From: Apostichopus japonicus
Lineage: Eukaryota > Echinodermata > Holothuroidea > Aspidochirotida > Stichopodidae
Assembly (NCBI RefSeq): GCF_037975245.1
Contig: NC_092569.1
Location: forward strand, 20,267,001-20,331,000
DNA length: 64,000 nt
Direction: 5' to 3'
Part shown: positions 13,301 through 58,836 of the stretch, one piece after another
Numbering within the stretch: the first letter of the stretch is position 1
How the letters are laid out: each line of letters opens with the position of its first letter
Notes under the pieces: generated by a model
Told to the model about the DNA's origin: nothing
Database searches by the model: none
Seen by the model: the letters and a program-made list of their open reading frames with translations, nothing else
Made by a program: the position numbers and the translations under genes

Positions 13301-15717
13301 TTTGATAATTTGCTTAGGTCATTGTAAATTGGATTCGTTAACCTGTAACCAACTAATATACAATCCCACGTGAAAGGTAATACATACCTTGAGATGGAGT
13401 TGCTTCGGTTGTCAAGTTGACCTCAACAGGAATCGAGTATGGTGCTAACATAGAAAAGAGAAAAATTTATAGTAAACAGAACATCTGATTCAAACTATTT
13501 CAACATTTCCTATTTAAGTAAGTAAATTTGAAGCAATTTTCACCCTGAGGAAATGTTTTCAATGTAAAATATGTCACGTCACAGAACGGTTTTTCCAAGC
13601 TCTAAATTCGTGATAATTATATGACTGGGGCAATTTTGTAATATTACCACGAATAGCAATAGACTCACTTATATTTTTTAGTTCCTTAATGTGGTCCCAG
13701 ATTGCAACATATCCATAACCTCCACAAGTCTCCCCACCTGGACAAGTTATTCCTCCCTCTACACATTGGTGGTCTTCAAGAAACTGAGAGTTGTTTCCGT
13801 CGCGCGGAGACTCGAAGCTACAGAAACATTTGTTTCCTTCTGCTAAGCCAATGAAAGGATAGGCTTGACAACGTTCCATGCATGATCTAAGAGTTAGTTC
13901 GGTAATTGATCCCATGAAATGAAAGTCATGGTCAGTCGTATGGTTCAAGCATCCAAAATAAGTAAAATCTGTAGGAAAACAAAACAGGCCAAGTAAATAT
14001 TTCAGACATTGCAGTCCTGGATTCTGCTGTAAATTTAATTTAAAAGAAGCTTTGTTTTTACTTGTGTTCTAGCCGATATTGTCTACATACGATGTATTGT
14101 TCGTATATCTTCAAGACTCAACTTGATGTGTGTTACTTGTACAGTACTGTGGTTCCTACGAACACTTTATTTAAACAGAAACATCTATGAGTGACTTGCA
14201 ACAACAACATTGGAGCTCTTCGTGACGTGTTTGAAAAAGTTGATTTCATAATAATGTGTTCATAGTTCTTAAAGAAGATCAAATTGACCTCATGTCGACG
14301 AAACAATGAAAGACAATATTTCAGTGACTTACAGTAGCATCAATGCGATGCATTTGTATTTTGTTTTTATGTGTTTGCTCTTAATAGTGTCAATTTAAAT
14401 GTTTTGTCATATTTAACCCACCTTATGTTTTTATATTTAACAACTTACTATTGTAGACCGCCATTGCCTGTTTACCACCACACGTTGGTCCACCTGAACA
14501 CAAAGTATCGCACCGTGTATCTGTAACAGTATTGTAAGCCTGGTATTGACTTCGATCCGTCCCACAATAACAGTAAGATCCATACTGAAGCCCCAATAAA
14601 GTATAGGTATCCACGTCGCATATTCGGGCACAAAGTGAGACCGTTAGATCGGTTCGGATTTTTCTTACATCAAGTACACTGGAATGGTTACTGCTATAGC
14701 AACCAAGGTAGTTCCCACCTGTTGGTAGAATGAAACATGCGGTCACAGAATCATCCTTAAAACAAATTCAAAAAAGGTATTGTAGTAACATGAATACGTT
14801 AACAAGTAACATTCACATTTAGTTTGTTATTTTTACGAATAGATTTACTAGTTAAACTCTAAAAGAACATAATGTTAGAATAACAGAAAGGACAACACAA
14901 ACATTGGAAGGAAACTGACACGTTCATGGTGACGTATTCCGTTAATAATAAGTTTGAAGTAAATATATCCAAAATCTTTGACTGGAATTATAAGAGACGA
15001 AGACACTGTGTATATTTAACAATATTATATCTGATTAGAAAGTTGAAAACATTATTTTGAGATACATACAGATAGTTTCTGTTGATGAGTTGTCGATCAA
15101 TATAACTTAGTGTTTGTTGCTATGACAAGTCTGCAGTACATTTATTTCAAATATATGCTAATTATTGTTTTATACATTATCTTACTTTCACCCAATATCA
15201 TGGTATTTCTTCATTACAACTTTACAGAAACAGATACAACATGTCTTGTGCATTGGTCTTAGTTGTCACGTTAAGGCCTTGTTATTGTAAAAAAGGGCAA
15301 CCTGTGTGAATTAACTCAGTAAACCACGAGTGTTAATACATCTGATTTACTCAAAAAAAGTAACACATTTCATATTTTCTACTTCCAAGGAGTTTCGACG
15401 AAAAACCTCCTTGGGTATTTCAAACTTTTATTTGATACAGAATATCGATTATAGATGTAAAATAGCATTCCTTTTATTCTTGTGCAGTATTTACACGAAA
15501 ATATGAGAGAAAACAAACGTTTAAAAGACTGCCAAAATCTGAGGTTTTACTCCCAGAAAATAAATCATTTGCATAGACTATTTATTATGGTAGGAAATAA
15601 ACGTTTGCTGAGTATTACGTTCATACAACACAAAGATTTTCGTTACTTACCAACTGAACTGACAGCCGATATTCCTACCAAACTCATACACGTCACAAGC
15701 GTTGTTACATAACCCAT
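10323..15717 (-). CDS. WSC-domain transmembrane receptor, 6 exons (receptor 2)
   Basis: Exons: 15717-15651, 14718-14449, 13968-13669, 13444-13388, 12506-12410 and 10608-10323. Phases are 1,1,1,1,2 and the total is 1077 nt (358 residues). Exon 1 (67 nt) is a signal peptide starting MGYVTTLVTCMSLVG. Exons 2 and 3 are WSC modules (about 23-112 and 113-212), each with eight cysteines and a C-terminal TCGG. Exon 4 is a short Thr/Pro stalk. Exon 5 is a membrane helix (FITAFLFVVGVLIGGIAGIVL) followed by an Arg. The tail (264-358) has eight tyrosines but no strict ITIM. The TM exon uses the acceptor after 12507; the AG five bases upstream would break the frame. The exon plan matches the gene at 6008->1774, so the two are tandem duplicates. 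WSC modules bind glycans in known families; the ligand here is unknown. Confidence 0.88.
10982..12036. mobile_element. Possible non-autonomous element with nested inverted repeats
   Basis: A 22-nt segment starting TTAATCCTGTGAG at 10982-11003 recurs as an exact inverted copy at 11939-11960. The right side is also the loop of a second perfect 22-bp inverted repeat (11921-11942 with 12015-12036). That loop contains shorter hairpins around GGGCGGAGCCC and GATGCAC/GTGCATC. The span lies in the last intron of the receptor gene at 15717->10323. No protein-coding content is visible. It could be a MITE-like element or part of a larger repeat; terminal duplications were not identified. Confidence 0.5.
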
Positions 15718-27300: not shown

Positions 27301-28696
27301 AACCACCAAGGTGTCTTGTTTTGGCTGCCTTCCTCAATTTGTGTCTTCCTATACACTATACTCTAAGATTTCTATATTTCCCCATTCTCAATAGAAACAC
27401 ACACTCTTTCAGTAAGGTTGTTACAAACGGTGTTTGAATTTCTTTCAGTACTTTTCTCAATGGAATAAACCGTTTGGTACGAAGTGTCTGGCCATAAGCA
27501 AGGGTACGCTTATTATGTAAAGGATCATATTAAAGGTACATGTTCTGGAAAAAAAGTGGCTTTAACATAAGGGCCATGCTCCTCTTGTACTTCTCCAGTG
27601 AGTTTATTTATTAATATTACCTAAGGGATATAATCAAATTCAAAAGACGTAATAAATTCAAGTTCCTCTGGGTAAACCTTGTTACGATCTTTCATAAGGT
27701 CATAAAAGGCTTCATGCCCACTGGGCAATCACCGATATAATGACAACATACTGTAGACTTAAGTTGGCAGAGCTCCATAATCTGTCTTCAACTGTAGTAT
27801 TATTAAACTTGAAATGAGAAAATAGGTCGCAGTCAAATTGATTTGTTGCCCAGTATTGATTTCACATAATGTTTCATAATCTCTGTGCGTATCAAAAGAA
27901 ATTAACTACCGCCACTATGACTATATAAGAACATACGTTGTCATCTTAGTGAAACTAAAATACACACATGAATGTATGCTTCGCGACAAACAGTCAAACG
28001 CAATCAGTGGCAAACTTAGTGCCAAGAGACGGTTTAGGAGTCTATTTATTAACTTCAATATGAGTCGATAAGGTGCTTGACTGTCATATGAATTCAAGCA
28101 GCATTGGAAAAGTTTAACAGTCTGTTGTTGCTTCCGTGCACTCTATCCCGTTGTTGTCCGACTAGAAATTCAGAGTAAGCATTTGCATAACAATGTTATG
28201 CAAACTTTACTCATTAGTTTCTCTTTAAAGTGCTTTGGTTGTTTACAAGTTGTCCAAAAACAGTTTGCATATTATGCCAGATATTGCATTACTACTTTCT
28301 TCTGTAATGAATATTGAGCCTGATATGGCCGATACATATTAACTTGACACATTATCAGCATCATTTCAGCAATATTTAATTCTGCATTTTTGTTATCTTG
28401 TAGTAGAAAAGTTTGTACGTTGAAAAGAAATGTTACAATGAAAGTCATGAGCTACCTCGTTCATATCTAAATCAAAGAGGGGGGAATATCTGCTAAGGCA
28501 TATGTACTGATGAAAGCCTATTTAGGCTAAATATGTACAAGTTAGATTTTGTCTCTCTTATTGTGTTTTTAAAAGTTTGTTTTCGTTCTAGTATAGCCTT
28601 TGAAGAAGATCCTGCTAAGATCGAAACTTCAGACAGTCTAACGTTTACGTAGTGGGTATACATCCAACTGAACTGCCGGTCCATCTGTTTATCTTA
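24353..28696. other. Intergenic; nothing recognised
   Basis: AT-rich sequence between the CACTA-like element and the (ATT)n tract. I looked for missing 5' exons of the partial minus-strand receptor (signal peptide or WSC cysteines) and found none. The GTAAGT-type donor near 24962 (minus) follows a frame that stops just before it. Confidence 0.5.
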
Positions 28697-29194
<498 letters not shown>

Positions 29195-29353
29195 GGGAAC
29201 GAGGATGGCCTTTTAACTGTCAAGAACGTTCTGTAAGGGGCTCTCAATTTTAACGCTTATTCTCCACTTCTTCCGCATTGAGCAAGTGTTTGATTACCAC
29301 CAACCCGGAATATCAACTATATTCTAACTTTTTCTTCGTGAATTTGTGCCGTT

Positions 29354-30136
29354 ATGGTGAGAGGTAGGCCCAAAGGAAGCAAAAATAAGCCAAAGGTAAC
29401 TTCAACTAGGCCTACAGTAAGCGACATGGCTAGTAAAAGGCCTACCATGCTAAGTCAACGCAGTAGACAACGTGGTTCGAGCTCTGAATCAGAGACGACG
29501 CCCAGCTGGAAAGAGGCATTTGAAACATTTAAGTTGTCATTACGTAACGATTTCGAAAAAAGCATTGGCATGTTGGAAAGCAACCTGGAAAAAGCTATTG
29601 AATCCTTATCTGAACGCGTGGAGGAGATAGAGAAAAGAGACGAGGATTATACAAATCGCTTCTTAGGAATTTCTAAAGCTCTCGAGAAGGCCAACGTCAC
29701 CATCAATGAAAATGCCGAATGTATTAACAATCTTGAGCGGCATTCGAGGAGGAACAACTTCAGAGTCGTGGGAATCAAAAGAACTGAAAACGAGAATTGT
29801 TCGACTATTTTACGAGAAAAGGTCCTTTCAAAGTTTCCAAATGGCCACGAGATACGTATTGAGAGATGCCATCGGGATGGACGGGGTGTCGGAGATAAAC
29901 CGCCTCATATATTAGCGAGATGTCTGTCCTTTCAGGATAAGATTATTATAATGAAGTCGTGGAGAACTCACCTGAAGGATCAACAATTTTTTATTGTAGA
30001 CGATCTTACGAGGCTGGATCTAGAGGAGAAAAAAGCCCGATCGGCTAAGGTGAAGGAACTGTATTCAACTGGAACAAAACTACGATTCGTGGCGGGGAAG
30101 TGGCGGGATGCTCGGGGGAAACCGTACCCTTTTTAA
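29354..30136 (+). CDS. LINE ORF1 protein, RNA-binding chaperone type
   Basis: The frame is intact at 260 residues. Residues 2-12 (VRGRPKGSKNK) look like an AT-hook. Residues about 20-50 are Ser/Arg-rich. About 55-125 is a heptad-patterned coiled coil (EKSIGMLESNLEKAIESL...). It is followed by RRNNFRVVGI, typical of the ORF1p RRM, and a C-terminal segment with IERCHRDGR and PHILARCLSFQDK that corresponds to the L1 ORF1p CTD. L1 ORF1p trimerises through its coiled coil and coats the element RNA. ATG at 29354 is the first in-frame start, just after GCCGTT. No frame damage is seen. Confidence 0.85.
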   Translation: MVRGRPKGSKNKPKVTSTRPTVSDMASKRPTMLSQRSRQRGSSSESETTPSWKEAFETFKLSLRNDFEKSIGMLESNLEKAIESLSERVEEIEKRDEDYTNRFLGISKALEKANVTINENAECINNLERHSRRNNFRVVGIKRTENENCSTILREKVLSKFPNGHEIRIERCHRDGRGVGDKPPHILARCLSFQDKIIIMKSWRTHLKDQQFFIVDDLTRLDLEEKKARSAKVKELYSTGTKLRFVAGKWRDARGKPYPF

Positions 30137-30446
30137 ATAAACAAACATCGTCGTGGAATCCACTAGTGAACTTTACAGATGTTCTGTAACTCATTAAACT
30201 AACATCTGGATCATATTTAATTGTATTTTTCTGACGAGTTTTCTAAATTGATCCCTTTACTTTATATGGAATGTTCGATTGTTAAGTCAAGGTTAGTCCT
30301 CATTCCTTTTTTCTCGAGTGCAAACAAAGCACTCTCTTTTGTGTTGTCTTGTTGTTGTTGTATTGTTGTTGTTTTTGTCTTTGATAGTTTGTCTGTGTGT
30401 TTTGCTTTAGTCTGTTTTGTGTTTGGTTTTTTCTTTAGTCCTTAAA

Positions 30447-33400
30447 ATGCATGATATCATCTCTGTTTGTACCTTTAATGCTCGTGGTTTAAATGATTTA
30501 AAAAATAGGCGTAAGGTGTTTACTTGGCTACATAACCAAAAGTTCTCTATTTCTTGAATTCAAGAAACACATTGCATTGACGCTTCTACAAGTTTTTGGA
30601 GTAATGAATGGGGTGGAAAGGCTTTTTTTTGTTTTGGATCTGTAAGAAGCGCTGGGTGTGCTATACTGTTTAATCCTTCCCTTAGCCTAGCAGTTGTTAA
30701 GCATTTGTCAGATTGCAACGGCCGCTACATTGTTATTGATATTGTTATTAATGACACAGTTTATACTATTGTTAATGTTTATGCCCCCAATAGGGACGAT
30801 CCGTCTTTTTTTAGCAACATATATAGGTGTCTAGCGTCCAATTTTACTTGCATAAACATTATATGGGGTGGTGATTTTAACTTAGTTCTGGACCTAGATC
30901 TCGACAAGGCAGGGGGCACAAAAAGAACAAATTTTAGAGCGAGAGAGATACTCTTTGAATGCATACAGGGACTTAATTTAGTTGATGTATTTAGGGAGAG
31001 GAACCCAAAGAAGTACCTTTTCACATGGTTTTCCAATATTATTGATGGCCTTAGTTGTAGGTTAGATTTTTTTTCTGGTGTCAACCAACTTGCTAGCTTT
31101 GTGTAACGACTGTTATACTTTATCGACCATTCAGTCTGATCATAATGCGTTAATTTTTAAGATGCGTGCTTCGACTTTTAAGAGAGGCGGGGGGTTTTGG
31201 AAATTAAACACTTCCCTATTGAAAGAAGCAGATTTCGTAGAAGGAATTCGTAAGTTAGTTTCTGGTGCCTTGGCAGAATGGGATTTAGATGCAACTAATC
31301 CACAACATTTTTGGGAATATTTAAAATTCCTCATTCGTTCCTGGTCCATGAAATATTCTAAAGAAAGGTCTCGTCTTGTGAGGGAGAGGGAAAAAACGTT
31401 ACAAAAATGTATTGTTTCATTAGAAACTGAATACAATTTCAACCCCACTCCGTCCCTTAAACTACAAATTTCAAACGCTAAGCACAGCCTTGACGACATT
31501 TACGAGGGCAAAATTGATGGTATTATTATTCGCTCTAGAGCGAGATGGGTTGAACAAGGTGAACGGAATACACAATACTTTCTAAATTTAGAGAAGCGAA
31601 ACAGTGAGCGCAAGTCAATTAAAATTCTAGTTGATGACAATGGGACTGAGTTTACCGATCTCCACGCAATTCTAAACGTTGAGCGAACTTTTTACGAAAA
31701 TTTATATGCTACTTGTAATGATGCTTGCTTGGATAATACTTTTACTGAGTCGCTTCATATTACGGGTTTGAACGACGATTCAAGAAATAATTGTGAAGGT
31801 GCCTTAACTGAAGAGGAATGTTGGAATGCACTTAAGAGTATGGCTTCTGGTAAGGTACCTGGCAGCGATGGTCTGCCAGCTGAATTTTATAGATTTTTTT
31901 GGCCAGAAATTAAGTCTTTCGTTGTTATGTCGCTGAACTCGGGATATCTGATAAGTAAACTTTCTTCGGAGCAAGGCAGAGCTGTTATTACTTTACTTCC
32001 TAAAGATGGTAAAGACATTAAGAAAATTAGTAATTGGAGGCCAATCTCACTTTTAAATGTAGACTACAAAATTGCTGCTTCTTGTATTTCTGCAAGACTC
32101 AAAGAGGTCTTGCCGCATGTTATCCATCATGATCAAACCGGCTTCCTTAAAAACCGATATATAGGAGAAAATATTCGACTGATCCTAGATGTTATACAGT
32201 ATGCACAGGATAAAAATGTGCCAGGTTACATTCTTTTCGTTGACTTTGAAAAAGCCTTCGACAGCGTTAATTGGAATTTTTTGTACCATACACTTCAACT
32301 TTTCAATTTTGGGGATAGCATTATTCGTTGGGTTAAGACCTTTTATGCAAATTGTACGGCTTGCGTTTTGAATAACGGGGTTTCATCTGGCTTTTTTCCT
32401 GTTAAAAGGGGGATGCGCCAAGGCTGCCCCTTAAGCCCATACCTTTTTGTGTTGTGTGCAGAAATTTTGGCTTTGAAATTACGAGCTGACCGTATGTATG
32501 TCGGTTTTCCAGTAGGCAATGTTAACATTAAAGTGTCTATGTATGCAGATGACACAACTATTTTCCTGGACAATATCGATCGTTCTTTACAGAGAGTTGT
32601 TGAGATACTAACAGAGTTTAAACAAGCTTCTGGTCTGAAGATCAACTTCGAAAGGTCTAACATTCTTCCTATCGGCGATAATAATGAGAATGGTAATGGT
32701 CAGAGTGCTTATAATATTCCCTTTACAGATGGTCCTATTAAGGTTCTTGGTATTACACTTACGAATAATAGAAGTGACCTCTTTCCCTTAAACTATTTGC
32801 CAAAACGTTCACGTTTGAAAAGTGTCCTAAATATGTGGTCTCCTCGTGATCTGACTCCCTATGGTAAAATTGTTATCATAAAGAGTTTTGCTCTGTCACA
32901 ACTTGTTTTCCTCTTCTCTGTTCTGCCTAACCCTCCAGAATCATTTTTAAAGGAACTAAATAGTTTACTGTTTAACTTTATTTGGAGAGGAAAGGGCGAC
33001 AAAATAAAGAGGAAAATTTTAATGCAGCCACAGGAAGAAGGCGGCTTGAATATGATTAACGTGCATGATTTCATGAAAAGTATGAAAATCACTTGGATTA
33101 AAAGATATACAGATCATAATTTTGGCCATTGGAAAGTCCTTTTCGACTATTTTTTGAAAAGCGTTGGTAAGGATTTTCTTTTTAGCTGTAATTTCAAGGG
33201 AAATGATATTTTTAACAAGGTTAAACACGAGTTTCTTCGCAACTGCTGTTGTGCTTGGAGCGATCTCACCTTTGAAACCCCGGTGGCGAATTACGGTGAT
33301 CAGATTATCTGGAACAACAGTTTTATCAAGATTAATAATGAAGTAGTTTGGTACAGGAAGTGTTTTAATTCAAATGTGCTTTATGTCCGGGATTTTTATG

Positions 33401-34176
33401 ACATGTCTGGCAGGCCTCTATCGTATACTGCTTTTATTGCTAAATTTAATTGTCCAAGCTTCCCCTTTACTAAGCTGAATGGGATTATACATTCTATCCC
33501 ACGTACGTGGGTACCATCCAGATATTCATTGCAGCTGCCGAAGCAACCATGTAGTCAGCAGGTTATGTTAGCGCAACTATATGGTACTACTAAGATTTGT
33601 CAATATGCTTATAATAAATTTAACAGCCGTTGTATTGAGCAACCACGTGGTTGTTTAAAATGGGACAATGATTTTAAAGGCACCACTTTAAACTGGAGTG
33701 AAATTTTGGGTTCTTGTAGCAAGATTAGAGATACTAAATTAAGAAGCTTTCAGTACAAGTTTATCCATCGTATCATTACTACAAATAGTTTTCTTAGTAA
33801 AATTAACATTATTGACTACCCAAGTTGCAGTTTTTGTGGCGAGTCTACTGAAACTTTAGACCACCTTTACTGGCGCTGTAGCGCAGTTGGAGATATTTGG
33901 AACAAAATATATCTTGAAATCTTTAATTCAAAAGTTGAAGTTGAGTACGAACACGTGTGTTTTGGTTATGATTACGAGAACAAAATGAAATGGTATAGCC
34001 TGACAATGTTTTATGCCAAATATTATATTTACCTTTGCAGAATTAACAAAAGCGTTCCAAGTTATGATATTTTCAAGCATAAGCTTTCATTTTTCTTGAG
34101 TGTTGAAATGTATATACTTATCAATAACAAAAAGCACAAAGAAATTAAACTGCTAAGGGATTCTTTGCATTATTGA
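30447..34176 (+). pseudogene. LINE ORF2: endonuclease-reverse transcriptase, two lesions
   Basis: The frame opens at ATG 30447 (HDIISVCTFNARG), the start of an AP-like endonuclease. Endonuclease motifs IQETH, NVYAPN, GGDFN and CRLDFF follow. A TGA at 30555-30557 interrupts it just before IQETH, and a T8 run near 31067-31074 shifts the frame. The next 1032 codons (from 31078) are open and hold the reverse transcriptase: ITLLPKDGKDIKKISNWRPIS, FVDFEKAFDSVNW, RGMRQGCPLSPYLF and the catalytic YADD (32542-32553). At the C-terminus, CSFCG...HLYWRC (33826-33879) is the zinc knuckle common in this group. With only two lesions the copy is young. Either lesion would stop a functional full-length product unless read through. 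Confidence 0.88.
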
Positions 34177-49225: not shown

Positions 49226-51106
49226 TGCGTTATAGATGTTTAGAATAATTCTCAGCTTTGAATAATCTAGAGATAACTTTAACATCATACACAGAGAATG
49301 ATGATAAACTGGTCACCATCGGCAGTGAAACAAGTCATTAATGTTGAAAATAAAGAAACAAGACACATTAAAAATAGTTAATTGTTAAATATCCGTGTTT
49401 AGACCTCCTGCTATCATTTTTATAATGATGTATATTTAATGTTTGTTACACAGAGTGAACCTGTAAGTATATGTGGTAAATAGCTACTTTATTTCCCTCT
49501 ATTTTACTTCAATGCGTAATATTTAGATTGACATTACGATTAAAGTTAGTGTCTGGAATTTAGCAACTTCTGTTTGTTTCTTTGGTTGTTTTGTATCAAA
49601 ACAAATTATGTTATAATGACTGGTAACCTTTCATAACTCACAGATCACTAGTGGATTGACTGATGTTTGTTAATTGTAGCCTGTAGGTTCTTAATGATAA
49701 AAACAGATTTACGTTAGAGCTGATAATTATAACCTCAGCTGACAGACCTACTTAGAAACAGAAATCATTTTATTCCAGTTGCTAAATACATTAAATACAT
49801 ACATAAATTAAATACATCGGTTATTGCAAAGTGATAAGTAAAATAATGCCTTTGTTTTAAATTGTAACTGACATACTTTCTCACCAAGATTTCATCATCT
49901 ACTCTGGCTGTATTGAAACAAACTATAAATAAATTGAAAGCAGGAAAAGTTATCGTTGTTAACAATCTACATTAATGATTATAACACAGTCTATGTACTA
50001 TCATTCTTTATAAATCTTCTTTGTCGATCCAGAAATTATCGCAAATTTATTCGAAAAATATCCGCGAAGAAGAATACAACGGAAAGGAACATCAAGAAGG
50101 GGAGCTTGATATTAGTATATATTACGAATTGTTGTGCGACGAAATTAGTAATAGTCTCAAAATTGAAGGCAAAATCGGATAATGCCGGACGAAGAATTGG
50201 CTAAGATTTTATTTATTCGCTATTGTTCTTCAATAATGGTAAAGACGAAGCAAAACCAGATCAATTATTTATTTGTAGTTAATATCCATCCTATTTCCCC
50301 TTCCCTTATCATCGTGTTCAATAGTCATTGAGTATCATTTCACTTTAATCTATTACAAATGGTTACAGAAAGAAACAATTTAAGATCATTTCATAAATAT
50401 ATTTATAAATGTAATTTGGAGATTCGATGAATATATGTAGTCACTCAAAAGTCAGCTTATTTCTTGTTATTGCCCGCTCTTCGTCGTTCTTTGGGGGGTT
50501 GGGCACACAATTAGGATTTGGGGCACTTATCTCGTTAGGGCTGGCTTATAAAGGTTAGGAACAACTTCTCTATTAGGAAGTTGATTTAGATCAATAGGGA
50601 ACAAAATTTGGAATTGATAAATTTAAAAAAATGCAAATTATATGCAAATTATGATATGCAATTTAGAACGCACATTTGTTTTAAATGGAAAACACCAAAC
50701 TACCCAATAAAATCACTAATGACTTCAAAATTGACTTCAAAATATATGATAAAGGTTTTTCTGGGGTTGTTCTTTCAGATGATACCAACTTTTCTGAAAT
50801 CTGTTGAGGATTGACAGAGTTATGACTGATTTCATTTTAGTATACATGTTGTTTTCTTTGTTTACTTTCTACAATTACAGCCTAACGTTGGCATAACGTT
50901 AGGCCTAGCCTAGCCTTTGTTGTAAACAACGCTATTGACTTAAAATTTCTGGATCCTCGAGAAGGACCGAATCTTGATAAACTGGTTCGACCAGAACGTC
51001 CTGGTCCTCATCATCAATGGTATCGGTATCGGACCAATCTTCCCACATCTCTAGGACCTATTTGGCCGAAAATTTGGGGGAGCTGAGTGCATATTTGCAA
51101 GCGTAC
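49226..51106. other. 3' flank of the fibrinogen-related gene; otherwise empty
   Basis: Contains the probable polyadenylation signal near 49349 and then AT-rich sequence with only short unsupported frames. A few CTAGGCCTAGCCTAG-like motifs occur near 50890-50915 and again at 51890-51960. Confidence 0.5.
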
Positions 51107-52270
51107 TAGACTGGTTCCATTTCTCATAAAGAAACTTGTCGAAGGCATTTTTGAGTACAAGCAATTGAAATGGTTCTTCTTAGGTGAAATTTTATGCTGA
51201 TTACAGAAAGTCTGGTCCCCAAGCTAAATTTTGAAAAGAAGCATGCCTAATTTGCATAAATTCAAAATGGCCGACATTTTGATGAATTTTGTGCATAACA
51301 CAAGATTTAAAGGACGTAAAGACTTTGTTCTTGCGTCAATACCCTTGTTTGTAAGGTCAAAGAATGCAATTATAATAATAGTTGTATCATTGGGTCATAA
51401 GTTGACCCTTAATTTGCATAAATTCAGAATAGCCACCGTTTTGATGCATAACTGAAGATTTAAAACCCTTTGAATCCTAATGTCGGATGATCCAACAAAA
51501 CAAGCGATCAATTTCAACAACATTCTAGCTCCGTAACCCAGTACCCCCCCCCCCCCCAAAAAAAAAGCCTGAAAACGGTAGAGCTTTTTAATCTGTAGCC
51601 AGTTAAGCATAGGCCAATTCTAGAAGATTTTACAGCAGATTTTCCAAGGAATGGGTATATGGCCAGTCTGGGGTATTTTACTACATTGCGCAATCACAGA
51701 ATGACCGCACGGTGGATTCGTAATTAGTTTTCCAGTGAAAACAGCTCAAATACACGTACAAACAGTCAGAAAAAGACTGAAAAGGTCAGTATGAATGCAA
51801 GGAATAATACTAGGGTAATTATCTCAAGCTATTAAGCCAATTTCTTGGTGTTTCGGGATGAATGTCTGGTAGGTAGGCCTAAATCCTAGTTTAGTTTAGC
51901 CTAGCCTAGTGTGTGAAGTTAATAGGCCAATGAAGTTAATAAGCCTGGTCTAGGCCTAGCTTTATGTAGGCTTAGTCAGTTATTGTGTGAGGTTAATAGG
52001 CCAATGCTTTGATCGTGATTCACGACTGTTCAAACGTGATTTACGACTATTTTGAAGAATATCATGGCTCAAACGTAATATTTCTGGAATCCTGACTAAA
52101 TGCCCGTTCCATTGATATAGGTTGCCATCAGTGACAAAAATATCTAGTTTTAGAGTAAAAAAATAGTTTCATTAAATGCACTAAATAACTTTCGGACCAC
52201 AGGGTGTCACAATATTTGATTGTTTCATCACTTTTCAGATTACAAGACTTTAAAACGTGTTGAGTTGAGA

Positions 52271-55200
52271 ATGGATCCGGTAATTTGCTTGAAGAGACCA
52301 TCTTCTGTAGACACCACGCTATGCATACTTTGCCAAGAAAGAGGCGGTACACTTAGCAAACCCGGTACACAAGGAATGAACACTTTAACCAAAGCAACTG
52401 CAACTAGAAGAAAATCAAAGAATGATAACTTCCGGGAAGTAACTGACCGCCTTACAGGACTTTTGAACTCTGAACCAATACCAGCTTTAACATGGCACAT
52501 GAAATGTTACCGTCCATATACAGACAGTACCAAACTGAAGAGATTGGAACCAATATGTAGCTCAAGCAAATCTGCAGATGATGAAGCCTCCAGCAGCACC
52601 CCTTCGCAAACCTGGTCCTCAAAACGATGAAGTAGTGTAGCTCCAATTAACTGGAAACTTTGCATGTTTTGTCAGAAGTTTACTCAACAGAGACTTAGAT
52701 CTATTATGTCGCTTGAATTAAGTGAGAGCATATTAACAGATGTTAAGTTTCATCAAACAATGGGCATTCACCTTTCTGGTATAAATGATCTAATAGCTGC
52801 AGAAGGGCAATATCATCTGGAATGCTCGGGATATTTCCGACGATCCGTAGCAAAAACTCGTTCTTCCGCTGGAACTGATTTCTCTGATGTGCCAATGGAG
52901 TGGCTCTGTACAGAACTAAGATATGCAGCAGAGAAAGGCCACGTTCTTTGCCTAGATGATGTGTGGAATCGGTACATGACAATCGCAGAGGAGTCAAATA
53001 TACCGATACCGAAGTCATTTATTAGTCGCCGAGCTAATTTCACTACCAAATTGCGGTCGAAAGTTGAGGATGTCATAACCTTTGTAGTTTCAGAGGGACC
53101 TCGTTCAGAAACACGAACCGTTTTACTCCCAATAAAGTATACTGGTTCTGTAATGTATATCTGCCAATCAACCGCAGAAGCCAAGGATGACGATCTGCTA
53201 ACGATACCACCGTATGTGCCTGAAGACGACACTTTTATATCTTTGGTGCATGTAGCTCTGAAGATTCGTGGTGATTTGATGGCAAAAGAAGGCCACAAAG
53301 GTTTGTCAGTCAGTGAAGAAGATTCTCTGGAATGTATCCCAGATAGCCTCTATCTGTTTTTGAATCTTGTATTCAATGGTACCACTCAGCTTGAAAATGA
53401 AAACATAGGCGAAGGAGAGAGAGAGAATACAATGAAGCAAAGCATATTAAGTACAGCTCAAGATATTGTGTATGTTGCAAGTGGAGGCAAAAAGTGGACA
53501 CCAAAACACATTGGTCTAGCCAGTACACTTCATCAGGCAACACGGTCCAAAGTTCTGGTAGATTTATTTCACAAGGCTGGTCACACACTAAGCTATAAGC
53601 AAGTTCTGCAATTAGATACAGCATTGGCAGAAAGTACCCTGAAGTCGATGGATCCACAAACTGGAGCTGTTATGCCTCCAAACATTATGCAAGACAGATT
53701 TATGCACTTCACAGCCGATAATATCGACATTCTCGACGAGACTCTACATGGAAAAAACACTTTCCATGCCACCCAGATGGCAGTATGGCAGCGAGGGCCA
53801 TCAAATGATGTTCGCCTTAACGACATTACACGATCAAGCACAAGTAGCCAGACGTTAAAAGTGCCAGATGCAATGGATACCTTGATCCCCGTTAGTAAAC
53901 CTGTTCAAAAGACAGAGCCAGTGTTACCGGAATGCTGCGAACAAGACATCGTTCTAGAACAGTCAGAGTGTGCGACAAAGTGTGCCAGAGAAGCATTTGC
54001 TACCGACCTGACATTCAACATTTTGCGGCAAAGAGGGACAGTTACTTCCAGCTGGACAGTTTTCAACGAAAAAATTTCCTCTCAGTCTCAACCAATGACT
54101 TCAGTCGGCTATATGCCTATAATCCAGGCTCCAGCTCATGAATATGACACTCTCAATACAGTTGTTCGTAGGTGCTTCCAAGTCTCCGCACATGCAGGGC
54201 AGGAGTTTACAGTTCTTACTGTTGACCAAGCCTTATACTGCAAGCTAATGGAGCTCAAATGGGCCCACCCAGAAGAGTATAAGAACCTCATACCACGACT
54301 AGGAGGGCTTCATATATCAATGAACTTTCTCAACGTCATTGGAACACATATGGAGGGCTCAGGATTAGCAGAGGTATGGATAGAGGCAGGTATATTTGGA
54401 CAAAATACTGCCCAACAGGCAATGAATGGTAAGAGCTACAACAAGGCCACGAGGGCCCATAAACTGACAGTTCAGTCTTTGTGGCGTTTGCTAGGGCCAA
54501 GTATTCTACACCATATTGACGCTACTGACAAGCAAATGTATGGTGACATTTCACAGGCTGATACACAAGACCTGATAGGAATTCTCAACAGTAAGTCATT
54601 CGGAAGAATAATGGAAAATTTTGAAGAAAAGAGACGAGAGGAGAATGTCAACTTTGACTTCTGGTGGAAATACATAAAAATGGTTGAGACTCTCCTTATG
54701 TTCACACGTGCCCAGCGTGATGGTGTATGGGATCTGCACCTGTTTGCCTTCCGTGAGATGTTGCCCTACTTTCTTAGGTATGACCACTATAATTATGGGC
54801 GTTGGGGTCCCGTGTATCTTGCAGAGATGTCGCAGTTGCCAGCAGATGTATTAACTGAGTTTCAGCAGGGAAACTTTGTTGTGAAGGGATCAAATCGCCG
54901 ATTCAATCAAGTTGATCCTGATCAAGCGCAGGAATGGTTGAACGGAACAGGAAAGCGTGGTGGTGGAATAGTTGGAATTACCAAGACAAGTTCTGCACTC
55001 ACTCGCTGGGCTCTTTCTTACAATCTGCGTTCACATATTGCATTGGAAACCAGAAGGATGTATCACATGAGTCACACGGACCGGCATTGTCGAAATGAAG
55101 AAATGCCTAGCCGCCAGGAGAAAGACAACACTGATGAGCAGTCCCTCGTGTCTGTATTTCAACGATTCAAGGTTTTTGATCCTACTGTCCAGCCAACTGC

Positions 55201-56881
55201 TCTTCAAAGCATTGTGACGAAAGATCTGGCTGATGAACAAATTCAAGACTCGTTGTTAAATGCTCAGATCTATGGCAAGCGGCAGCTGCAGGAATTTGTC
55301 AAAGACAGACTTGTGATAGATCTAAATAAGTCCTCACCCAATAAATCACTTTATGACCCTATCACTAAAAACAATGCACCGACTTTTGAAACCCTGTACG
55401 AGGTCAAGATATCGGGTAGTGACAAGGATAAAGCAAAGATCCTGAAGACCAACAGGAACATCTTGCAACGTCTCATCATTGCATATGCAGGAGGGCGCGA
55501 AGTGGATCTTGATACTGTTCTGAAGCATGAACTGATGCCTGTACCACTCGCCCTTGCCAATGTTAATGGTACGCTTAGGACAGGGAACAAAGCAATCCTA
55601 GCCGACGTAATAACAGCGGAAGTCGAATGCCCTGCAAATATTGATTTCAACAAAAGTACTGCTTGCTTGGTGATAGATGGGCAGGTCAGAGTAATTGCTG
55701 TCGGCAAGCCAACTAATGCTAAGACGTTTGGAGACCTAGCAGATGAGTTTACAAAGTCTATATATCAATCGGGTTCTAACTATGGTAGAATAGATGTGGT
55801 ATTTGATAGATATCGTGAAGAGTCAATCAAATCTATGACACGACAAAGGCGCTCTAAAACCATAAGACCAATACGACGCGTAATTGAAGGTAGAGATGTC
55901 CCCCTCCCAAGCTCATGGTCCAATTTCATATCCTCACCAGACAACAAGTCAGATCTTGCGAGGTTTCTTTCCGAGCAACTCTTAGAAAATGCTCCACCCG
56001 ACAAGGAGGTAGTTGTAGCTGGTGGATTTGAGAATGAACAGGAGGTAAAATCTTCTCACACAGCAACTAACATCATTCCTCTCAGAGCGTCTCACGAAGA
56101 AGCAGATACTAGACTTGTCCTGCACGCAGTCAACATCCCTTTTGACACAGTTGTGGTTTCAGCACAAGACACCGATGTCCTTCTGCTCTTGGTTGCACAT
56201 TTTCACCGTGTCCAGTGCAACCACTTATGGATGATAGCTGGAACAAAGAAGAAAAGGAAGTACATTCCTGTTGATGCCGTTCGTCAAAAATTGACGACTG
56301 GTTCTGAAAATGCCTTACTTCCATTCCACGCACTAACAGGGTGCGACACAACTTCTTACTTCTTTGGTCACACAAAGAAAACAGCATGGAGAGTGTTTGC
56401 TACCCATTTTGAACTACTGAGTAGTCTTGGTGAAGGCTTGTTAAATACAGATAAGATATGATCCACAGAAAAGTTTGTATCCCTCATGTATGGTGTTGAC
56501 ACAGCTTCGGTAGATACTGCACGTCGAATCATGTTTGAGAAGGCCAAAAAACATGAGTCTTTGCCTCCGACCAGTAATTCGCTACATCATCATATCCAGC
56601 GTGTACACTTTCAAACTATGGTATGGAAAGAAGCTCACTGCCCAACACCTGATCTACCAGATCCAGCTGATATGGGTTGGAAGCGAGGAGATACAGGATT
56701 GCGACCCATTCTGATGACTCTGGATCCCATTCCCGACGTCTGTGTGGAACTGATTTCTTGCGGATGTACAACAGCATGTAATACCATGCAGTGCAAGTGC
56801 AGAAAGGCACGTATTCCTTGCATTGGCCAATGTGGCTGTAGAAAACGTGGACCCGAATGCTTCAACGTAAGAGACATTTAA
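52271..56881 (+). CDS. Intronless transposon protein with two in-frame TGA codons
   Basis: One frame of 1536 codons from ATG 52271 (MDPVICLKRPSS), interrupted by TGA at 52628 (codon 120) and 56459 (codon 1397). The longest open piece is 52664-56461. Two CxxC...HxxC modules lie at C18/C21/H76/C79 and C131/C134/H182/C185, one on each side of the first TGA. A conserved-looking core has TVDQALY (D652), LGGLHISMNFLN (677-688) and DHYNYGRWGPVYLAEM. HEEADTRLVLH (D1279), AQDTDVLLLL (D1300, D1302) and ALTGCDTTS (D1359) resemble the spacing of acidic motifs in PIN/FEN-like nucleases. Residues 1491-1531 form a Cys-rich cluster (CGCTTACNTMQCKCRKARIPC). An AG acceptor-like site just before the ATG could mark a 5' leader intron. 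I recall similar unnamed proteins in marine animals but cannot name the family. Confidence 0.75.
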
Positions 56882-57504
56882 TTGGTAGTTATTCAGAGAC
56901 ATAAATTTCATCCGTAAGTAAATGATCAATGAATTCTTTATGTTCCAATGTAATGTAAAAAGTATAAATTATCATTTTTAAACTCTAGAAACCGTTTTTG
57001 GCAAAGAGCGACATTAAAGGAATTGTCTGGTGGAAGATTTTGATACATTGTCCTTGTACTTATTATTTTTCTCTTTCTAACCATGTAAAAATTGTCCCCA
57101 TTTGATATTTTCTTCTTGTAGAAATCTGGTTTTCAAATTCACCAGTTTCTCACCAAAAGTACCGTTTGTTCGAACGCTTCAATATGGTGTTTGACGTAGT
57201 GCTTGCAGATAGGCAAAACAGGCGACTTGAAGTTAGCACTCCCAATTCCGCAGCAAATTAACTGACGTGTAAGCACATTGAATTGCCTCATATATATAAC
57301 GTACATACTCGCGAACGTATACCCATATACTACGATGCTCAGTTGGTGTACTTGTATAGCGTTACACATAGTACACTCACACTCAAACCACAGTTCATTA
57401 ACTGTTCTTCGAACTCGCTGAAATAAAATTCACGGATCAAATTAACAGTAAAAGGAAACTTATAAAGTATTCGTTAAACCGAAAGATGAAACTTGGCGGG
57501 ATCG

Positions 57505-58020
57505 ATGTCATCGCAAAACTGTCCGATTGTAAACGTTAGATAGAGTAGCCTATACACGCGAACATTCTTCGCGCTGGTGCTGGATACCGCGATGTATAAA
57601 CAACGAAGAGCCTGCTGTTAAAACTTATCTTGTGTTACACAATGACCACGAAACCACCGATCTACTAAATATATTGCGGCTTAAGGAGTTTTTTAAATCA
57701 TATCTAATTTATAAGAAATTTCACCGGAAATTATTGAAGAAATTGATCGAATCGTTGTCAGAGCAGAATATAGCGCTGAATAGCTTAGGCTTCGCAGAAC
57801 TGTCCGATTGTCAACGTTTGAGTACAGCCTACATGCGAACATTTTTCGCGTTGGAGCTGGATAGCGCGATGTATAGCCTGAACAACTCAGAGTCTGCTGT
57901 TAAAATTTACCTTGTGTTACACAAAGACCACGGAACCACCGCTCAAGTACATGGTGGCTTAAGGAGTTTTTGAAAACATATCTAATTTTTAAGAAATTTC
58001 ACCGGAAATTAAGGAAGAAA
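57505..58020. repeat. 281-bp tandem duplication inside the 7.7-kb element
   Basis: CGCAAAACTGTCCGATTG at 57512 recurs as CGCAGAACTGTCCGATTG at 57793. The two units stay alignable to AAATTTCACCGGAAATTA at about 57733 and 58012. A frame of 113 codons (57632-57973) spans both units but has no recognisable features. Confidence 0.85.
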
Positions 58021-58836
58021 TTTATCTGTACACACCCGCTGTTTTTGTTGTGATTACCGTATAGGTACTGTGCGGAGGGTGGGTTATGACGCAATCTGCT
58101 ATGGCAGAGCTGACGTCACGTATTGTACTGTTCAAATCATATTTGAAATGTCTATCCATAACGGTTAAAAAATCGTTTCTCTGTCAAACGCAACATTAGC
58201 GTTCTCATACTTTGACAACATGTTTGGAAAATTATTTACTATTTTTTAAGGTAACTTCTTTGGGCCACCAGACAATCCTTTTAATCTAAACCCGAGAAAT
58301 ACAGATTAGATAACTTTTAGAATGGCGTATTGTTGAACTTGTGCAAGATAGGTGTGAGCATATTACCCAATGATATAATTACGGTTATGAATGAATTTCT
58401 TGACACTGAAAACATAGGTATAGACACAACAATGAAGTCTCTACGGGTCTTGAATCTTGAGTTATGCATCAAAGCATCAAATTGGCGGCCATTTTGCATT
58501 GATGCAAATTAAGTGTAAACATTTATCATCCAATCATACAACTAATGTTATAAACGTAATCTTTGACACTGAAAACATAGGTATAGACACAAGAACGAAG
58601 TCTCTACGAGTCTTGAATCTTGAGTTATAAACCAAAATCATAAAGTTGTCGGCCATTTTGAATTTATGCAAATTAGACACATTTTTCCTCAAAATTCAGC
58701 TTGGGACCAGGCTTTTTGAAATCAGCATAAAATTTTCATAGAGAAACAATATTTCAATTGCTTGTGCTCAAAAATGCCTTCGTCATCATTTTAGGGGGAT
58801 CTTTATGAGAAATGGAACCAGTCTATACGTAAAGTA

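Follow-up and report, generated by a model that had tools for sequence, protein, structure and literature searches.

The window considered here, i.e. the whole stretch of 64,000 nucleotides from Apostichopus japonicus (C9, positions 20267001-20331000, in a genome searched over 671.6 Mb and 35 contigs), contains at positions 51107-58825 a large DNA transposon whose family encodes a multi-domain protein with a transposase-like core and a putative FEN/XPG-like nuclease. An earlier note, made from the sequence alone, had set the element between these two positions and the boundaries turned out to be exact to the base. Both tips read TAGACTGGTTCCATTTCTCATAAAGA (26 of 26 positions identical) and are directly flanked by the same three base pairs (bp), TAC, as a target site duplication (TSD). 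Imperfect inverted arms of about 370 bp, also announced in that note, extend to 51473 on the left and to 58440 on the right; the repeat search resolved them into four linked inverted pairs of 78-85 % complementarity (51137-51473 versus 58440-58785).

A search of the genome with the left end returned, besides diverged copies, three others that matched the entire query at 98-99 %. Of the window family (family A), seven copies including that of the window were analysed, of which four displayed both ends and three were without a readable end. Identity of the three other complete-ended copies to that of the window was 98.5-99.2 % over the main stretch and 97.6-98.4 % at the right end, and the four complete-ended copies were flanked by TAC, TGA, CAT and TAT. 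Alignment of genomic copies, a check already proposed earlier, defined the ends and the 3-bp duplications and found the terminal repeats in other copies. The window element is a recently active cut-and-paste DNA transposon.

The 7.7-kb unit described at the outset was correct as a span, not as the element's own length. An insertion of 1263 bp, bordered by TTAA, was missing from all three other complete-ended copies, and the copy on C2 displayed an empty site with a single TTAA at the corresponding place; the element proper is therefore about 6.45 kb long, and 7.7 kb was rejected as its own length. At least 40 further full-length copies of the insert were found in the genome at 97-99 % identity, which identifies it as a separate TTAA-targeting element that landed in the window copy. 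Its ends read AGGAATTGTCTGGTGG, and a Pfam scan of its 146-amino-acid frame with a limit of E 0.01 found no domain. It looks like a recently active non-autonomous element driven by Kolobok or piggyBac.

The anatomy of the protein was read from an alignment of 14 frames, several being incomplete, and its parts are listed for the window copy in Table 1. The CxxC...HxxC modules, the core with Asp and His motifs and the Cys cluster of the earlier note were all located there, and the acidic triad EAD/DTD/GCD was recovered as HEEADTR, DTD and GCD (56093-56347). Two CxxC...HxxC modules were counted by eye near the N-terminus in the window family and in L031, and one in L015 and L014. Core motifs displayed across the aligned frames were WDNID, DQAIY, LGxFH and DxxxE. 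The CXC cluster corresponded to Pfam TCR. Of five relatives scanned one by one, two exceeded the cut-off of this family (E 3.3e-7 and 1.8e-5); with a limit of E 1, five of 14 members had it, and the window copy reached only E 2. TCR and DUF6589 apart, Pfam and PHROGs gave weak matches only with the transposon protein, and the single match of a PDB sequence search (E 0.054) was taken as chance.

A single intronless gene had also been proposed. This holds for the family, one copy of which (C9:12398055-12404505) is open over 1552 codons without any stop, but not for the window copy: two TGA codons interrupt its frame and it can no longer make the full-length protein; it might still be mobilised by protein from an open copy. 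The copies on C16 and C2 were also in two pieces, of 196 and 1356 codons and of 334 and 1156 codons, respectively.

Table 1. Features of the window element (positions in the window) and locations of family B copies in the genome
Feature	Position	Strand	Remarks
Left TSD, TAC	51104..51106	.	same as 58826-58828; other copies flanked by other 3-bp repeats
Left terminal inverted repeat, perfect 26-bp tip	51107..51132	+	starts TAGACTGG; equals reverse complement of 58800-58825
Left long imperfect inverted repeat	51107..51473	+	internal direct repeat 51248-51287 / 51410-51449; inverted pairs and direct family from repeat search; matching ends in other copies
First gene part with CxxC...HxxC module 1	52220..52627	+	module spans 52322-52507 (52322-52333, 52496-52507); stops at TGA 52628-52630
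Main open stretch (module 2, core, nuclease-like domain)	52631..56458	+	1276 codons
CxxC...HxxC module 2 (CMFC...HLEC)	52661..52825	+	retained, by eye, in relatives reaching that far
Core, homologous to DUF6589 region of related proteins	53402..54958	+	motifs span 53714-54937: DNID 53714-53731, DQA 54218-54235, GxxH 54302-54319, DxxxE 54917-54937
Putative FEN/XPG-like nuclease domain	55430..56458	+	acidic positions at nt 55676, 55805, 56099, 56105, 56168, 56174, 56345; from alignment, residue table and hhalign to FEN-1
In-frame TGA breaking the window copy	56459..56461	+
C-terminal part with CXC-like Cys cluster	56462..56878	+	cluster from 56756; two relatives pass Pfam TCR cut-off
Nested 1263-bp insertion, outside element proper	57018..58280	.	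TTAA at 57014-57017 and 58281-58284
Right long imperfect inverted repeat	58440..58825	-	perfect 26-bp tip 58800-58825; from repeat search; matching ends in other copies
Right TSD, TAC	58826..58828	.	matches 51104-51106
Family B copies L015-L017	C8:38383072-38387787, C18:3680629-3685344, C19:23289981-23294696

A genome search with the protein, in which 36 of 266 candidates were scored, gave at least 52 matching stretches, that of the window counted; they included remote families with about 30 % identity and frames of 1551-1572 amino acids. Family B consisted of three copies of 8392 bp on C8, C18 and C19, which were 99.95-99.99 % identical, displayed an intact open frame of 1572 amino acids and were flanked by TCC, TGT and TAC; this family moved very recently. 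Each of its copies also carried an extra open stretch of 164 amino acids near the left end. Family C was found in three copies; in two of them, with aligned lengths of 8992 and 8987 bp, both ends could be read, and the TSDs were ATG and TAG. Tips were TAGACTGG in family A, TAGACGGTGGGGC in family B and TAGTCAGTGGGCC in family C, and the latter two families displayed, by eye, only short inverted repeats at their tips, in contrast to the approximately 370 bp of the window family. Among the 13 copies fetched from the three families, all nine with both ends readable were flanked by a 3-bp TSD. Copies, duplications and conservation together bear out the initial description of a large DNA transposon, of its multi-domain protein and of a PIN/FEN-like set of acids in the latter. 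Scans of viral contigs for relatives of the protein found none, while a scan of genome contigs gave two loci, one in a Planctomycetota bin (L057) and one in a Bathymodiolus symbiont bin (L058), both of which are probably animal DNA filed in bacterial bins. The former displayed a frame of 1466 amino acids and, over 4.4 kb, shared 83 % identity with family C.

In the core alignment (A3), the first D was present in all eight rows covering it, the second D in ten of ten and the E in eight of eight, and the residue three before the His was G in each of ten rows. Pfam DUF6589 appeared weakly in six of 14 window-group members (best E 0.0046); among proteins scanned singly, three were positive inside the core at E 0.015-0.1, i.e. 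below the curated cut-off, which leaves the window group remote from anything named. A genome search with PF20231 (DUF6589) gave nine matches, eight of them above cut-off. Five of the corresponding loci (L061, L062, L064, L065 and L066) were long single-frame proteins with DUF6589 followed by the same nuclease motifs. L064 carried a frame shift before GCD, and L065 (C13) and L066 (C19) were near-identical by eye; elements of this group lie at C13:2871721 and C19:22347626. The alignment of this group (A6) was composed of L061, L062, L065 and the shorter L060 (97 % identical to L061), L064 and L066 being excluded as near-copies by eye. With hhalign, whose E-values refer here to single pairwise comparisons, the core matched the DUF6589 group at a probability of 99.9 (E 3e-31, 488 columns), with D, D, H and E superposed, and the nuclease domain matched it at 99.8 (E 3.1e-28, 296 columns); the control of core against nuclease gave 0.1. 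Since both domains match in the same order, the window group and the DUF6589 group look like one ancient two-domain family, and the profiles suggest that DUF6589 is a transposase core, presumably a DDD/E-type (RNase H-like) domain. DUF6589, to which Pfam assigns no function and whose name was not found in the literature searched, is hereby connected with the core of DNA transposons that were active recently. A third DUF6589 kind (L059, L063 and L068) displayed GGDQ, EDWH and DLRLEHIN motifs over several frames, among which no helicase was noticed by eye, and may be an old domesticated, multi-exon or decayed relative.

The domain following the core is very likely FEN/XPG-like, although statistical support for homology with FEN is modest. 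In 13 aligned sequences from both groups, six acidic positions were identical throughout and the seventh was D in ten and E in three. These do not represent 13 independent families, the window copy and L040 belonging to one family and L020 and L057 being close; excluded from the alignment (A7) were L058, L066, the degenerate L029, L064, whose frame is lost ahead of GCD, and L027 and the second L025 piece, by eye near-copies of L020 and L019. The order of the seven acids is that of the FEN-1 active site. Compared with a FEN-1 profile made of four FEN-1 PDB chains and three host exons, the nuclease profile gave E 0.0019 in an alignment of 88 columns that brings DxD, GCD and the stretch behind it into register; the core profile, as a control, gave a probability of 0.1. 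A rerun with slightly altered settings gave E 0.004 and a score of 30.4, which was reached in none of 20 and none of 200 column shuffles (maximum 24.2); the reversed profile scored 14.8.

Several observations weigh against these assignments. The window group alone (A2) reached only E 0.081 and a score of 21.2 against FEN-1, within the range of the shuffles, and the FEN-1 alignment is limited to 88 columns, so that the N-terminal acids and EEAD, which it does not reach, were assigned by motif reading. L029 displayed E for the second D of DxD (DTE) and no GCD. Among the features of the FEN/XPG superfamily, the seven acids are present with L029 as an exception, while a match to Pfam XPG_I is absent: its four matches in the genome included none at transposon places (the three fetched resembled XPG, FEN1 and EXO1 exons by eye), and no XPG family was found at E up to 1 in 14 window-group and four DUF6589-group members. 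The three host XPG_I exons alone gave probabilities of 0.1-0.2 against the nuclease profiles (control 0.25). Profile searches, which the earlier note had recommended, gave no match in PDB for core or nuclease domain. The host FEN1-like exon, used as a query, had no match among phages or plasmids.

Between family C and L057, the ratio of non-synonymous to synonymous changes (dN/dS) was 0.156 overall, 0.145 in the core and 0.122 in the nuclease; both domains are kept by selection. Values within family A (2.1 and 0.57, on dS of 0.004 and 0.012) were based on too few changes for use.

AcademX elements carry a nuclease of the XPG type, and Zisupton elements generate TSDs of 8 bp, which differ from the 3 bp encountered here. 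PMC10045372 attributes TSDs of 3 or 4 bp and a nuclease to AcademX and TSDs of 9 or 10 bp and a helicase to AcademH, TSD length in Academ lineages being seemingly tied to helicase versus nuclease, in keeping with the combination found here; a TSD of 3 bp is given for Academ in PMC5199201. TSDs agreed with the AcademX description in nine of nine readable copies, and so did the nuclease at the level of sequence (seven FEN/XPG acids, FEN-1 at E 0.0019). Pfam scans of 14 window-group members, some of them partial, and of four DUF6589-group members listed no helicase family up to E 1. In view of the 3-bp TSD, the nuclease and the missing helicase, AcademX is the best fit by printed descriptions, and the window element is probably a member of the Academ superfamily, which is known but has been little studied. 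An autonomous-type cut-and-paste transposon of AcademX type is considered the likely explanation. In PMC9587614, Academ is listed with DDD/E transposase superfamilies and not among the five with a C/DxxH motif, which agrees with the G found three residues before the His of the core. Of the two options initially put forward, a diverged Academ-type element is hence favored by TSD and nuclease over a new superfamily.

Core and nuclease-like domains were conserved together across remote families. In the mechanism proposed, the CxxC...HxxC modules at the N-terminus and the CXC cluster at the C-terminus would bind DNA, probably the repeat-rich ends. The DDD/E-type core would cut at the TAG...CTA ends, whose 3' termini it would join to target strands offset by 3 bp, and the fused FEN/XPG-like nuclease may trim a 5' flap, an overhang or a hairpin-like intermediate during excision or gap repair. 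Functional tests of the accessory nuclease in Academ-type elements were not found in the literature searched, which did not include the main Academ paper; its role is open to assay in family B, given the three copies of 99.95-99.99 % identity and their intact 1572-amino-acid frame.

The C-terminal domain could instead be catalytically dead, or a non-FEN metal-binding domain with a structural role, all cutting being left to the core. The marginal similarity to FEN-1 and the fact that no library names the domain speak for this, but all seven positions carry an acid in each of the 13 aligned sequences, their order follows FEN-1, and constraint is at least core-like (dN/dS 0.122 versus 0.145, a difference not tested), which renders it unlikely. 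The core might also not be an Academ transposase at all, but that of a separate DDE superfamily sharing nuclease and 3-bp TSD with AcademX by convergence or domain exchange. This is rather improbable. In its favor, no direct link to an Academ sequence was shown, and DUF6589 scores of window-group proteins scanned singly stay below the curated cut-off (E 0.015-0.1 in three; best 0.0046 in the scan of 14 members); against it, core and nuclease both have their homologues, likewise arranged, in the DUF6589 group (whose identity with Academ is itself not established), and TSD length and nuclease fit the AcademX description.

Still bolder, and doubtful, would be a distinct DDE superfamily defined by a DUF6589-type core and a FEN-like nuclease, in which the fused flap nuclease would be an essential catalytic partner, making for instance the second-strand cut at each end; if true, transposition would need two different nuclease folds in one protein. 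A host gene caught by chance between inverted repeats, for which the host-gene-like domains (CXC, FEN-like) could be invoked, is extremely improbable. Repeats and gene move together, complete-ended copies lie at four places with differing 3-bp duplications of their own, and remote families combine a related protein with the same TSD length. The host-gene interpretation was discarded on account of these copies and their TSDs.

Elsewhere in the window, a non-LTR (long terminal repeat) retrotransposon occupied positions 29342-34176 of the plus strand, with a frame of 264 amino acids without Pfam match, an Exo_endo_phos frame (30558-31106) and a frame of 1036 amino acids with reverse transcriptase and zf-RVT (31066-34176). 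It was directly preceded by a long AAT/ATT-type triplet array (28645-29256), read from repetitive frames. An open stretch on the minus strand (13574-14068) displayed a WSC domain (E 2.7e-7) and is probably a host exon.

Compared with known systems, the nuclease shares with FEN-1, XPG and EXO1 the order of seven acidic positions and, with FEN-1, a GCD followed by a GxGK...L stretch aligned with GIGLKKAL. It differs in being missed by Pfam XPG_I, in its fusion to a transposase-like core and in displaying HEEADTR where FEN-1 has SEGEAQ. DUF6589 (PF20231) proteins present core and nuclease in the same order, both homologous by profile (L061, L062 and L065 compared; L064 and L066 by eye), but their third core motif is G[DE]WH instead of GxFH/GxLH and their first nuclease acid is E instead of D. 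KolobokE, D and P, as presented in PMC9587614, also unite a transposase and an accessory nuclease in one element; the same text gives Kolobok TTAA duplications and a C/DxxH motif between the second D and the E, and Dada a C/DxxH motif. Kolobok was excluded by TSDs (TAC, TGA, CAT, TAT and others, not TTAA) and by the lack of C/DxxH, and Dada by the latter alone (G three before the His in ten of ten rows). AcademH would be of the same superfamily, according to the literature, if the element is Academ, but its TSDs of 9 or 10 bp and its helicase contrast with the 3 bp and the absence of a Pfam helicase here, and it was excluded on both counts. From AcademX as described in print, the window family differs in its imperfect inverted repeats of about 370 bp, families B and C having, by eye, short ones at the tips; with it, the element shares the 3-bp TSD and a nuclease in place of a helicase.

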